Shown here in pieces: positions 36,603 to 46,086 of a stretch of 64,000 nt of DNA. Every line of letters begins with the position of its first letter. Position 1 is the stretch's first letter. Source of the DNA: Elusimicrobiota bacterium (GTDB lineage Bacteria; Elusimicrobiota; Endomicrobiia; Endomicrobiales; Endomicrobiaceae). A program made the translations under genes and the position numbers. The notes beneath the pieces are model-generated. The model ran no database searches. It had not been told where the DNA came from and was given only the letters and a program-made list of their open reading frames with translations. Location: contig JAFXOV010000044.1 of the NCBI GenBank assembly GCA_017528425.1, forward strand, positions 62,001-126,000, given 5' to 3'.

Positions 36603-37172
36603 ATGAAAAAAGGATTGTTGGCTTTGTTGTTGGCAGTAGCTCTTGTAGCACCTGTTTTTGCAGCAGACGAAGGTACAATGGAATTGGACATTAAAGCAGG
36701 TTTTAACCTTATGTCCAGTGCAGAGGTTGAAAGTGAAAGCCAGGATATAGATCCTGCATTCACAGCCGGAGTAGATTTCTTTTATTATGTAATGCCTCAA
36801 TTGGCAATCGGTGCCGGTGTTCAATATGTTTTCAATTCTGAAGTAGCAGATTCTCATGGTATGAAAGCAGGTTGGACAAATCTTTATGCACAAGCAAAAT
36901 ATGTATTTGAAACAGGAAGCGATATTTTTAACAATGTTTATCCTTTAGTTCAAATCGGTTATGGAATTTTAAGAACAGATCCAGATGAAGATTTTATAGA
37001 TTCAAACGGATTATATTGGGGTATCGGTGCAGGAACAACAATAAACAAATGTATTGTTCTTGAACTTCTTTATTCAAATGGTAATGCAACACTTAAACTT
37101 GATCCTTGGACTACAGGAGATTTAAAGTATTCAACAATCCAATTGAAAGTTGGTTATAAATTTACTTTCTAA
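36603..37172 (+). CDS. Small outer-membrane beta-barrel protein, tandem copy 1
   Basis: The 189 residues have a signal peptide (1-20, APVFAADEG) and an amphipathic beta-strand mature part ending KVGYKFTF, an outer-membrane insertion signal. It is near identical in layout to the protein at 8722-9288 (shared PAFTAGVDFFYYVMPQLAIG and FNNVYPLV-like segments) and similar to the next gene. AAGGAGAAAG lies upstream of the ATG. It has its own promoter and terminator. The exact family is not recognised. Confidence 0.8.
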   Translation: MKKGLLALLLAVALVAPVFAADEGTMELDIKAGFNLMSSAEVESESQDIDPAFTAGVDFFYYVMPQLAIGAGVQYVFNSEVADSHGMKAGWTNLYAQAKYVFETGSDIFNNVYPLVQIGYGILRTDPDEDFIDSNGLYWGIGAGTTINKCIVLELLYSNGNATLKLDPWTTGDLKYSTIQLKVGYKFTF

Positions 37173-37343: not shown

Positions 37344-37919
37344 ATGAAAAAAAGTTTATTGGCTTTATTGTTGGCAGTAGCACTTGTAACACCTGTTTTT
37401 GCGACAGATAACAAGGTAGGTGAAATAGACGTTAAGGCAGGTTTTAATTTTATGTCTAATGTAACAGTTGATAATACTGATTATGATAAAAGTGTTGATT
37501 CTGCATTTGCAGCCGGTGCAGATTTATTCTTTTGTTTAACGCCCCAGTTAGCAATCGGTGCAGGTGTTGATTATATTTTCAATCATGAACTGCCAAATTT
37601 GGATGGTTTGAAAGCAGGTTGGACAAATATCTACGTACAGGCAAAATATATGTTTGAAACAGGAAATAATATTTTTAATAATGTTTATCCGTTATTTCAA
37701 ATAGGTGGAAGTATATTAAGGTTAGACACTGATTCTGAGACTGAAGTGGATTCAAACGGATTGTATTGGGCAATTGGTGCAGGTACAACAATAAAAGAAA
37801 ATTTTCTTCTTGAAATTCTTTATTCAAAATGTAATGCAAAAGTTAAAGAAGATTTCTTTAGAGGTGATTTAAAATATTCAACATTGCAGTTGAAAGTTGG
37901 ATATAAACTTCCCTTCTAA
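37344..37919 (+). CDS. Small outer-membrane beta-barrel protein, tandem copy 2
   Basis: The 191-residue paralogue has a signal peptide ending TPVFATDN and a mature barrel with the shared segments LAIGAGVDYIFNHE, FNNVYPLFQIGGSILRL and SNGLYWAIGAGTT, ending KVGYKLPF. It is more diverged than copy 1 is from the 8722 gene. It ends before a strong bidirectional terminator. The tandem arrangement with duplicated promoter indicates local duplication of about 740 bases. Confidence 0.8.
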   Translation: MKKSLLALLLAVALVTPVFATDNKVGEIDVKAGFNFMSNVTVDNTDYDKSVDSAFAAGADLFFCLTPQLAIGAGVDYIFNHELPNLDGLKAGWTNIYVQAKYMFETGNNIFNNVYPLFQIGGSILRLDTDSETEVDSNGLYWAIGAGTTIKENFLLEILYSKCNAKVKEDFFRGDLKYSTLQLKVGYKLPF

Positions 37920-42868: not shown

Positions 42869-42905
42869 GATTAAATTCCAATTAATAAAATTAACAAGTA
42901 AATAT

Positions 42906-44055
42906 TTTACCAAATTATGAGATTTTTAGATATAGAACTGATTTCGGGTATATCAATATTTTTTTGGAAGATTCAACAATTATCCGAATTTATAATCTCA
43001 CTATACTAGATTGAAATTGGTACAATATCACTAAATATAGTGGCAATTTCAAATATACTACCATATAGCTTTTTAATTTCTAAAAACTATATTTCAGGTA
43101 TTTTTATGTCACGTTTGTAAGTCAATTTATGAATAAAACTTTTTTCACAGGCTTTCTTAAAATCCGCATTAGATATTTTTTTCACCTTTTCAGCCTTACT
43201 TAAAATAATATGTATATTTCCATCGTTTTCATTCAGAGAGTAACCATAATATAATTTTTTGAAATCCCTATCATTTTCAAGCAAAGCAATAAACAAATAA
43301 TGATGTACAAAGTAATTCAAAGAAAAATTTTCATTTTTCCAGTATTCTGTTATTGCTGCCTCCCATTTTGAAATGAGTTGATTGTACTGTTTTGAATAAA
43401 TAAAGCAATTATTTATAAAAGTCTTCGCAAATTTTCCAACACTCCTATAAATAAAAAAATCTGAATTATAAATATATCTTGGCAATTGAGAAGTTAGTAA
43501 GCAAGTTGCATCCAGCCAAAAACCACCATATTGTTTAAGTAAATAAACTCTTATAATGTCTGAAAAATGTGCATTGCCAATTATGTTTTTTCTATGTTTC
43601 TCCATTATAAACTCTGGCAATGAAAGATAATTATTTAAGTTATCGTATGTAATAACCTTAACTTCAAAATCTTTCGGCTTATTTTTTCTAAAGGATTGAA
43701 AACATTTTTTTACCAGTTCCGGAGCATTATCTTCACCCTGAAGCCAACATGTCCAAATATAGTTTCCACATTTGCAATCTTTTTTTTCTAATTCAATACC
43801 TTTTGCATACCGACTTAAATATTTTACACAACGTTCCCTGTTAACTGGTGAAATTTTATCGCGAAAAGAATCCCTTGCGGACTTGTTCCAAAACACCAAC
43901 GAAGATAATAAATTAGCACATAGTTTCGTTACATTTAATGCAATTTTATTCATTTTTTTAAAAAATACTTTTTTAAGTGATTAGAAAAACTATTTTATAA
44001 CCTGTCTTTATCGTAATGCTGGTTATTTTACTAAATTATGAGATATTTTGATATA
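42906..44055. repeat. 30-base direct repeats flanking the glycosyltransferase gene
   Basis: TTTTACCAAATTATGAGATT... at 42906-42935 and its counterpart at 44026-44055 agree at 27 of 30 bases. They bracket the whole 43087-43953 gene. Each copy also lies upstream of a minus-strand gene (lpdA and the glycosyltransferase), so a shared promoter element is the alternative to an insertion scar. Confidence 0.65.
43087..43953 (-). CDS. Capsular-polysaccharide-type glycosyltransferase (Caps_synth/GT32-like)
   Basis: The 288 residues show NYIWTCWLQGEDNAPELVKKC, a middle GNAHFSDIIRVYLLKQYGGFWLDATCLL (the GGxWLD sugar-nucleotide/metal motif) and a His-rich end. This is the pattern of the capsular synthesis proteins related to GT32 enzymes. 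It would add a sugar to a surface glycan. There is no clear Shine-Dalgarno before the ATG. The gene is AT-rich even for this region and is bracketed by 30-base direct repeats, suggesting recent acquisition. It follows the ATP-grasp gene of the peptide operon. Confidence 0.8.
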   Translation of the reverse strand: MNKIALNVTKLCANLLSSLVFWNKSARDSFRDKISPVNRERCVKYLSRYAKGIELEKKDCKCGNYIWTCWLQGEDNAPELVKKCFQSFRKNKPKDFEVKVITYDNLNNYLSLPEFIMEKHRKNIIGNAHFSDIIRVYLLKQYGGFWLDATCLLTSQLPRYIYNSDFFIYRSVGKFAKTFINNCFIYSKQYNQLISKWEAAITEYWKNENFSLNYFVHHYLFIALLENDRDFKKLYYGYSLNENDGNIHIILSKAEKVKKISNADFKKACEKSFIHKLTYKRDIKIPEI

Positions 44056-44062
44056 ATTTTTT

Positions 44063-45004
44063 TTAATCGTTCAAAAACTTTTCCGGTAACTTTAACATTT
44101 CTCCGAATTTATAGTCCCATTCAATAGGATCAAACGGAGATGTACCGTTACCCGGAGTAAAAGTTAATTCCCCTACATAAATGTTATTATTACCGTCTTC
44201 ATATAAATCAACTCTGACTAAAGGAAAAGGTTTTGCCAATTTTTCCGCGATACTAATCATTTCATCGTAATTATTAATTTCCAACTTTACTTTACTGTTG
44301 TTTAACACATTATCATTTATAAAAGGCTGTAATTTTAAATTTCTGTCATAAAAATTAAAAAATTTTGCGCCTTCATGTATTCCGGTTACCATCAAATATT
44401 TATAGTCCCCGTTAAAACAAAGAAATTTATAGTTCTGTGCAATTAATCCGTCTTTTCCTAAAAGCAATTTCTCGCAAATAATTCTCGGTTTTATATCTTT
44501 GTATTGCCACTCAAAATTCAAATAATAAAAATTTTTTTCCGGTCTGGTCCAAAAGTTAAGCTTTTTTATTGCACGGGCAACATCAAACGTTGATTTATCC
44601 CGGCATAAAATATTTTGTCTGCAACCCCAATTTGTTTTTACTATAAATTGATTCGGAAACTTATCAAACTCTATTTCTTCGGGGGTATTATAAAAACCTA
44701 AACAAGGGACTAAATATTTTTCACCTGCGACATCTTTTATATAATTTCTTACCTCTATTTTATCCGAACATTTTGTCATTAACGGATTATGATAGTAGAA
44801 TTTTAGCCATTGAATTTTTTCATTGAAAGTTTTGGGATTATCCAAATTCAACTTATAATTCAACTGTTGTTTGAATTGAACTTCTAAAACATACCGAATT
44901 TCTTCTTTGGTTATTTTTTGTGATTGTCCGGAACGAATTCTTTTATATTTAAAATTTAGTATATGTTTTAAATTGTTCCATTTCTTTTTAATTTTATCTA
45001 TCAT
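44063..45004 (-). CDS. TupA-like ATP-grasp protein
   Basis: The start at 45004 overlaps the radical SAM stop as ATGA and gives 313 residues (MIDKIKKKWNNLKHI). The sequence fits TupA-like ATP-grasp proteins: KTFNEKIQWLKFYYHNPLMTKCSDK, then DKIEVRNYI, FIVKTNWGCRQN, ICEKLL, and DLYEDGNNNIYVGELTFTPGNG with metal-binding acidic and Asn residues near the end. ATP-grasp enzymes join a carboxylate to an amine through an acyl-phosphate. The family takes its name from teichuronopeptide synthesis and is common in glycan loci. The coupling to the radical SAM gene suggests a joint task. Confidence 0.8.
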   Translation of the reverse strand: MIDKIKKKWNNLKHILNFKYKRIRSGQSQKITKEEIRYVLEVQFKQQLNYKLNLDNPKTFNEKIQWLKFYYHNPLMTKCSDKIEVRNYIKDVAGEKYLVPCLGFYNTPEEIEFDKFPNQFIVKTNWGCRQNILCRDKSTFDVARAIKKLNFWTRPEKNFYYLNFEWQYKDIKPRIICEKLLLGKDGLIAQNYKFLCFNGDYKYLMVTGIHEGAKFFNFYDRNLKLQPFINDNVLNNSKVKLEINNYDEMISIAEKLAKPFPLVRVDLYEDGNNNIYVGELTFTPGNGTSPFDPIEWDYKFGEMLKLPEKFLND

Positions 45005-46041: not shown

Positions 46042-46073
46042 AAAAAAAAGACCCCTTTATAAAAAAGAGGTCT
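46042..46073 (-). terminator. Attenuator-like hairpin between precursor and radical SAM gene
   Basis: On the minus strand AGACCTCTTT and AAAGGGGTCT pair (one G-U; arms about 46064-46073 and 46049-46058) and are followed by a run of U (46042-46048). The hairpin lies 13 bases before the radical SAM start. It would let most transcripts stop after the peptide gene, giving more precursor than enzyme. Confidence 0.8.
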
Positions 46074-46086
46074 CTTATATTTAAAA

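Follow-up and report, generated by a model that had tools for sequence, protein, structure and literature searches.

Does a TupA-like ATP-grasp ligase act on a peptide or on a glycan when its gene overlaps the gene of a radical SAM peptide maturase? The question is raised by a locus in the window (i.e., the whole stretch of 64 kb that was analysed) from a 2.08-Mb genome (G000) of the Candidatus Ruminimicrobiellum genus, a group of Elusimicrobiota from the rumen. Rumen members of the same family are reported to have been suspected of living with ciliates (PMC11257099).

The locus lies on the minus strand (the plus-strand reading of the ligase interval has 20 stops) and comprises, in the order of transcription, proS, an ACGX-type peptide gene, a hairpin, the maturase, the TupA-like ligase, a Caps_synth glycosyltransferase, lpd, and gcvT (Table 1; the names of proS, lpd, and gcvT come from reading, without homology search). 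The sequence-only reading that had pointed to this locus did not give the strand and overlooked both the gene of the precursor and the hairpin that separates it from the maturase. The pair that it had described, an ATP-grasp protein joined to a radical SAM protein by an ATGA overlap, was confirmed by the profile matches to both proteins. A Shine-Dalgarno-like stretch for the ligase (GGAAAG) was located at 45014-45009. The same reading had taken the overlap to imply balanced synthesis of the two proteins, a claim that did not hold up: the 4-nt ATGA type occurs in 4/56 same-strand neighbouring ORF pairs of the window (ORFs ≥ 80 aa, mechanically picked), so that the overlap alone says little, and as a sign of function it was rejected.

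Table 1. Features of the maturase-ligase locus in the window, followed by the repeat-peptide genes found next to TupA paralogs at loci L035, L081, and L082
Feature	Position	Strand	Basis
proS	48098-46374	-	named by reading
ACGX-type precursor peptide, 68 aa	46087..46293	-	TIGR04341, 22.2 bits (cut-off 28); AGGAGG ribosome site and ATG
Terminator-like hairpin in the peptide/maturase gap	46046..46076	-	-15.6 kcal/mol, z -3.9
Radical SAM/SPASM maturase, ACGX family (acgM), 342 aa	45001..46029	-	TIGR04340, 575 bits (cut-off 400)
TupA-like ATP-grasp amidoligase (predicted), 313 aa	44063..45004	-	PF14305, 149.5 bits (cut-off 25)
ATGA shared by the maturase stop and the ligase start	45001..45004	-	sequence reading
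TupA-lpd spacer repeat, copy 1	44024..44055	-	alignment
Caps_synth glycosyltransferase, lineage-specific insert	43087..43953	-	PF05704, 209.9 bits
TupA 3' end remnant in the glycosyltransferase/lpd gap	42966..43000	-	aligns to the C-terminus of the R. bubulum TupA and the adjoining spacer
TupA-lpd spacer repeat, copy 2	42903..42934	-	alignment
Repeat-peptide gene (G000, contig C4)	L035 8982-9134	-	
Repeat-peptide gene	L081 7345-7473		
Repeat-peptide gene	L082 2628-2681		

The ligase matched PF14305 (ATPgrasp_TupA, E-value 1.5e-43) as its only Pfam family, with a weak XcbA match as the only one in NCBIfam; no graspetide or microviridin model matched it in either collection. It keeps the RVD and GELTF motifs, with R264, D266, E279, and T281 invariant in an alignment of 25 sequences, and by family it is predicted to be an ATP-dependent carboxylate-amine ligase. 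A TupA-like domain, that of Cj1438C (Campylobacter jejuni capsule), is reported to convert the GlcA C6 carboxylate into an amide (PMC11800379). Searching the PDB by sequence, with the ligase as the sole query, gave no match. The structural comparison with graspetide ligases that had been proposed for the ATP-grasp site was run with a predicted model (pLDDT 90.8, pTM 0.88) and returned generic ATP-grasp matches: the top Foldseek matches included the graspetide ligases PsnB and AMdnB, which scored about the same as D-Ala ligases, PurK, and ArgX/LysX (among the 50 matches listed, identity was 9-19% and TM, normalised to the query, 0.36-0.45). With these generic matches tied, the fold gives no pointer to the substrate.

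The upstream partner was assigned by profile search to the rSAM_ACGX family (TIGR04340) and carries a SPASM domain. Its putative precursor has the leader MSLKNLYAWN and a Cys/Lys core that contains TGC[GN]-like motifs. It stays under the cut-off of the TIGR04341 precursor model, as do the corresponding peptide of Candidatus Ruminimicrobiellum bubulum (G006, same genus, contig JAGCCP010000039.1; 9.5 bits) and the canonical-type ACGX peptide of a third genome, G003 (23.3 bits). The window and R. bubulum precursors are 37.5% identical over 64 columns. In their cores (residues from 15 on), Lys occurs 5 times in the window and 12 times in R. bubulum, and Asp/Glu once and not at all, respectively. 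The lack of Asp/Glu cannot be read as a signature of the ligase, as it is common to the ACGX peptides of the genus that have no adjoining TupA gene (that of G003 and the second peptides described below); all 25 precursors recovered from 60 ACGX loci of other families (see below) had at least 4 Asp/Glu in the core.

Both the window genome (contig C48) and R. bubulum (contig C25) encode a second, canonical-looking ACGX peptide of 58 aa with PCGCGSKKNA repeats (L135, 1209-1385; L136, 8812-8988), after which come MarR and redox genes in a layout similar to that of G003, without an intervening maturase; the R. bubulum locus also lacks the FMN/4Fe-4S gene. In these two genomes the sole TIGR04340 gene over the cut-off is therefore the one at the proS-lpd locus, beside a diverged precursor that keeps the leader (MSLKNLYAWN vs. 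MALKNLYGWN), and both peptides are probably served by the one maturase. The arrangement also illustrates how a RiPP-like locus can change, with a second precursor that has diverged, a maturase placed away from the canonical site, and a further, putative tailoring gene coupled to it.

The order of precursor, hairpin, maturase, and ligase is the same in R. bubulum, likewise between proS and lpd, with a peptide/maturase hairpin of z -6.6 and a maturase/ligase junction that reads TAATG (1-nt overlap). Identity between the two species was 98.8% for proS, 88.2% for the maturase, and 70.6% for the ligase, with dN/dS values of 0.026, 0.09, and 0.26, respectively. The ligase is thus under purifying selection, constrained yet fast-evolving, and its fast change is not peculiar to it, since other genes of the compared stretch reach identities as low as 69.4%. 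The conservation of the pair in two close species could be plain synteny.

The glycosyltransferase downstream, which the sequence-only reading had regarded as leaving a glycan role open, is not conserved. No Caps_synth match was found at the R. bubulum locus, where the spacer to lpd follows directly after TupA. In the window, the interval between ligase and lpd (42903-44055) holds a copy of this spacer after TupA, the glycosyltransferase, a fragment of the TupA 3' end, and a second spacer copy, a layout suggestive of a recombination or duplication scar. The glycosyltransferase was rejected as a member of the system on both grounds (absence at the R. bubulum locus and position within the scar).

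Across 340 genomes of the phylum, TIGR04340 was over its cut-off in three (the window genome, G003, and R. bubulum), and the coupling of maturase and TupA was seen only in the window genome and R. bubulum. The three Ruminimicrobiellum maturases formed one clade in the tree (100/97), with the two TupA-coupled proteins nested within it (100/100). The G003 locus is of the usual kind and consists of peptide, maturase, MarR, an FMN/4Fe-4S protein, and a Zn-dehydrogenase (named from an annotated relative), without TupA. Beyond the phylum, 51/397 genomes in the family of a Hungatella-labelled genome (which we take to be Lachnospiraceae) and 31/138 in that of a Methanobrevibacter-labelled genome (Methanobacteriaceae) exceeded the cut-off. 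In a neighbourhood scan with R. bubulum as the positive control, none of 60 ACGX loci from these two families had a TupA gene within ~1.5 kb (30 of 55 matches listed for the Hungatella family and 30 of 34 for the Methanobrevibacter family, mostly the best-scoring; 10/60 loci end early at contig ends, and a TupA gene farther off or cut away would escape). It was likewise not found in the larger loci L039-L042 or in three plasmid loci (L125-L127), and G341, one of the scanned genomes, carries TupA genes on a different contig. The maturase family does not need TupA, given the 0/60 loci with one nearby, and TupA was rejected as a general ACGX partner. The usual partners in the 30 Hungatella-family loci were HTH (28), nitroreductase (17), FMN/4Fe-4S (16), and Zn-dehydrogenase (9) genes, and no relatives of these were found in the 64-kb window (tblastn) or in the 19.9-kb stretch of R. 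bubulum. Within the open-licence literature, no paper was found on the ACGX maturase (TIGR04340) or on RiPPs that combine radical SAM and ATP-grasp enzymes in Elusimicrobiota.

PF14305 itself was present in 22/340 phylum genomes, and the statement that TupA-like proteins are usually met in glycan loci agrees with their surroundings. Ten neighbours of phylum TupA genes were scanned (out of 31 neighbour ORFs extracted): a domain for polysaccharide synthesis, Wzy_C, or a glycosyltransferase exceeded the cut-off in eight, one had a sub-cut-off glycosyltransferase match, and one is an Antibiotic_NAT protein. Two plasmid relatives (out of 140 records with a match) adjoin a flippase in one case and sulfate-activation and methyltransferase genes in the other. 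Within the genus, 11 PF14305 matches were found in 6/11 genomes, and eight of these form a clade of their own (100/100, stem 0.7). The remaining matches are those of G001 and G008 (contig C100), which fall among other TupAs of the phylum and have glycan-like surroundings by reading, and a fragment in G009 that was left out of the tree. In R. bubulum (a MAG rated 100% complete) the maturase-coupled ligase is the sole match. Two of the eight clade members are maturase-coupled, three stand behind a repeat-peptide gene, and three have no peptide directly upstream; the latter (TupA1 of G000, TupA3 of G000 and G008) lack a peptide of their own but lie a few kb from a repeat peptide. The regions of the clade paralogs also contain PMT_2, GtrA, GT2, DegT, and amine-oxidase-like genes. 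The co-occurrence check that the sequence-only reading had suggested gave a mixed outcome: most homologues lack the radical SAM gene and most have glycan genes near them, yet not always, as 5/8 clade genes directly follow a peptide gene or a peptide-maturase pair. One locus of the window genome (L035, 6192-13263) carries three divergent TupA paralogs within ~7 kb, with unrelated genes between them and GT2 and DegT adjoining the outermost.

In three species (G000 contig C4, G003 contig C21, G008 contig C24), a clade TupA directly follows a small peptide gene led by a Shine-Dalgarno stretch. The peptide gene lies between yihY and the TupA gene, in a stretch that runs from yihY to an OmpA-like gene. 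The product in the window genome is MKLGDGPVEALKFGDGPVVALKFGDGPTVLSKIGDGPAAVSKIGDGPVPK; that of G003 is 42 aa long with a K-x-G-G repeat, and that of G008 is a truncated form of 17 aa. A strong hairpin stands in the peptide/ligase gap (z -4.9 in G000 and -6.9 in G003, the two loci folded). Across the repeats of the G000 peptide, five in number, codons for G-D-G-P vary at third positions only, as translation predicts. The start pattern of these peptides was recovered from 3/61 genomes, exactly the three named, with no occurrence in the reversed control, and no Pfam or NCBIfam model matched the G000 and G003 peptides; this K-x-G-[DG]-G repeat peptide gene is previously undescribed. With 6 (G000) and 4 (G003) Asp/Glu, a crosslink is less excluded for these peptides than for the ACGX-type core, and most G003 repeats are without Asp. 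A screen of 319 small ORFs beside TupA in 30 Hungatella-family and 25 phylum loci (L097-L121, including the clade loci L116 and L117) yielded no further repeat peptide: it flagged the known G000 peptide and a 30-aa low-complexity ORF without glycine (filter: a minimum of 28 aa and a Shine-Dalgarno-like stretch, together with either a repeat score ≥ 0.3 or > 20% Gly; blind to the 17-aa peptide of G008).

Taken from gene order, alignments, and trees, the best single reading is that a genus-specific TupA amidoligase was recruited to peptide tailoring in a RiPP-like operon, although we hold it tentatively, at somewhat less than an even chance. The position of close TupA relatives behind other repeat peptides suggests that the ligase now acts on peptides. 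The claim that use in peptide modification would be unusual stands in so far as such use appears both unusual and plausible, the latter because of the likely cognate precursor, the pairing in a second species, and the three paralogs beside a repeat peptide; the crosslink of graspetide type that it also envisaged fits poorly with a core almost without Asp/Glu. Close behind, and still a serious rival that we consider quite possible, is the decoration of a surface glycan, e.g., as a uronic acid amide of the Cj1438C kind, with the adjacency to the maturase being accidental or a matter of co-regulation. The characterised TupA-like domain has a sugar acid as its reported substrate, not a peptide (PMC11800379), nine of the ten neighbours scanned beside phylum TupA genes are of glycan type (one of them by a sub-cut-off match), a glycosyltransferase adjoins the ligase in the window, and the paralogs have PMT_2, GtrA, GT2, and DegT genes in their vicinity. 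The peptide reading also has against it the three clade members without a directly upstream peptide and the three genus matches outside the clade, two of which sit in glycan-like surroundings. Against the glycan reading, the glycosyltransferase is missing from the R. bubulum locus and lies within the scar, R. bubulum has no second PF14305 match, and five of the eight clade members stand behind a peptide gene or a peptide-maturase pair. The readings overlap, and the probabilities given to them need not sum to one.

An amide between a Lys or the N-terminus of the maturase product and the carboxylate of a uronic acid, which would tie the peptide to a surface glycan, would join the peptide and glycan readings. 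It would unite the GlcA carboxylate reported as substrate (PMC11800379) with the Lys-rich, Asp/Glu-poor cores, and peptide and glycan-type genes share a paralog region; we nevertheless regard it as unlikely. Less likely again, and in our view improbable, is that the ligase is a passenger of recombination among TupA copies, without a special link to the peptide system. Such an origin would suit the dispersal of TupA copies in the genus and, at the locus, the leftover TupA 3' end and the doubled spacer; against it, the maturase-ligase coupling persists in two species, with a dN/dS of 0.26 and conserved motifs. Least credence is given to a macrocyclase that, like graspetide ligases, would join Asp/Glu to Lys, Ser, or Thr side chains within the peptide. 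The presence of PsnB and AMdnB among the top structural matches and the GDGP repeats with Lys and Asp in the paralog peptide of the window genome speak for it; the single Asp/Glu in the window core and their absence from that of R. bubulum, the about equal matches to D-Ala ligases, PurK, and ArgX/LysX, the lack of a matching graspetide model, and the mostly Asp-free repeats of the G003 peptide make it very improbable.

Under peptide tailoring, the maturase would recognise the conserved leader M[SA]LxNLYxWN and modify the Cys-containing core, and the TupA ligase would next make an amide on the modified peptide. Since the cores are rich in Lys and almost free of Asp/Glu, the peptide would serve as the amine donor through its Lys residues, and the activated carboxylate would be external, for instance that of an amino acid or of a uronic acid like the one used by Cj1438C; the joining of an external carboxylate to a peptide Lys is the most likely form of this reaction. 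Extended to the whole clade, the proposal would make the Ruminimicrobiellum TupAs new peptide-tailoring enzymes that place an external carboxylate, possibly a glycan uronic acid, onto the Lys of repeat peptides to give acylated or glycan-conjugated products, with one branch acting after radical SAM modification; this wider version is doubtful. If the ligase does work on peptides, a glycan-decorating family gains a peptide branch, and the K-x-G-[DG]-G peptides become a second, independent substrate candidate.

Several known systems resemble parts of this locus. It shares with the ACGX system (TIGR04340 acgM, TIGR04341 acgA) a maturase over the cut-off, a short leader ending in W[NH], Cys repeats, and a precursor directly upstream, but its precursor is sub-cut-off, TGC[GN]-like motifs replace ACGX, the usual neighbours are missing, and a TupA ligase is added. 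The window ligase agrees with the TupA-like amidoligases (PF14305; Cj1438C) in family, in its predicted fold (ATP-grasp), and in the conserved residues of the motifs, whereas it stands behind a peptide maturase, belongs to a separate clade, and lacks a conserved glycan or capsule cluster. The graspetide ligases PsnB and AMdnB are likewise ATP-grasp enzymes encoded with a precursor peptide, but they belong to another sequence family, and the window core is almost free of the Asp/Glu residues concerned. In 'grasp-with-spasm' systems, a radical SAM/SPASM protein and a RimK/microviridin-type ATP-grasp enzyme are combined with a small Bacteroidota precursor, a composition that, compared by description, differs from the present one in its ATP-grasp type, which is TupA here; no paper on these systems was found in the open-licence literature. 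ArgX/LysX, which act with LysW in amino acid biosynthesis, offer a fold match and an ATP-grasp reaction on a small carrier protein, but have no radical SAM partner.

Some further observations concern the maturase family and the window at large. On a Methanosphaera plasmid (L126, 5001-6025), the maturase is annotated as two consecutive CDS that correspond to the radical SAM and SPASM parts. A macrodomain hydrolase and a Sir2-family deacetylase follow the ACGX loci L127 (7322-8972; Roseburia as annotated) and L039 (10308-11934; the Hungatella-labelled genome, gene names by reading), hinting at a tie to ADP-ribosylation. On the plus strand of the window, two tandem paralogous genes (36603-37172 and 37344-37919) encode small proteins with near-identical signal peptides that are outer-membrane-like by reading.
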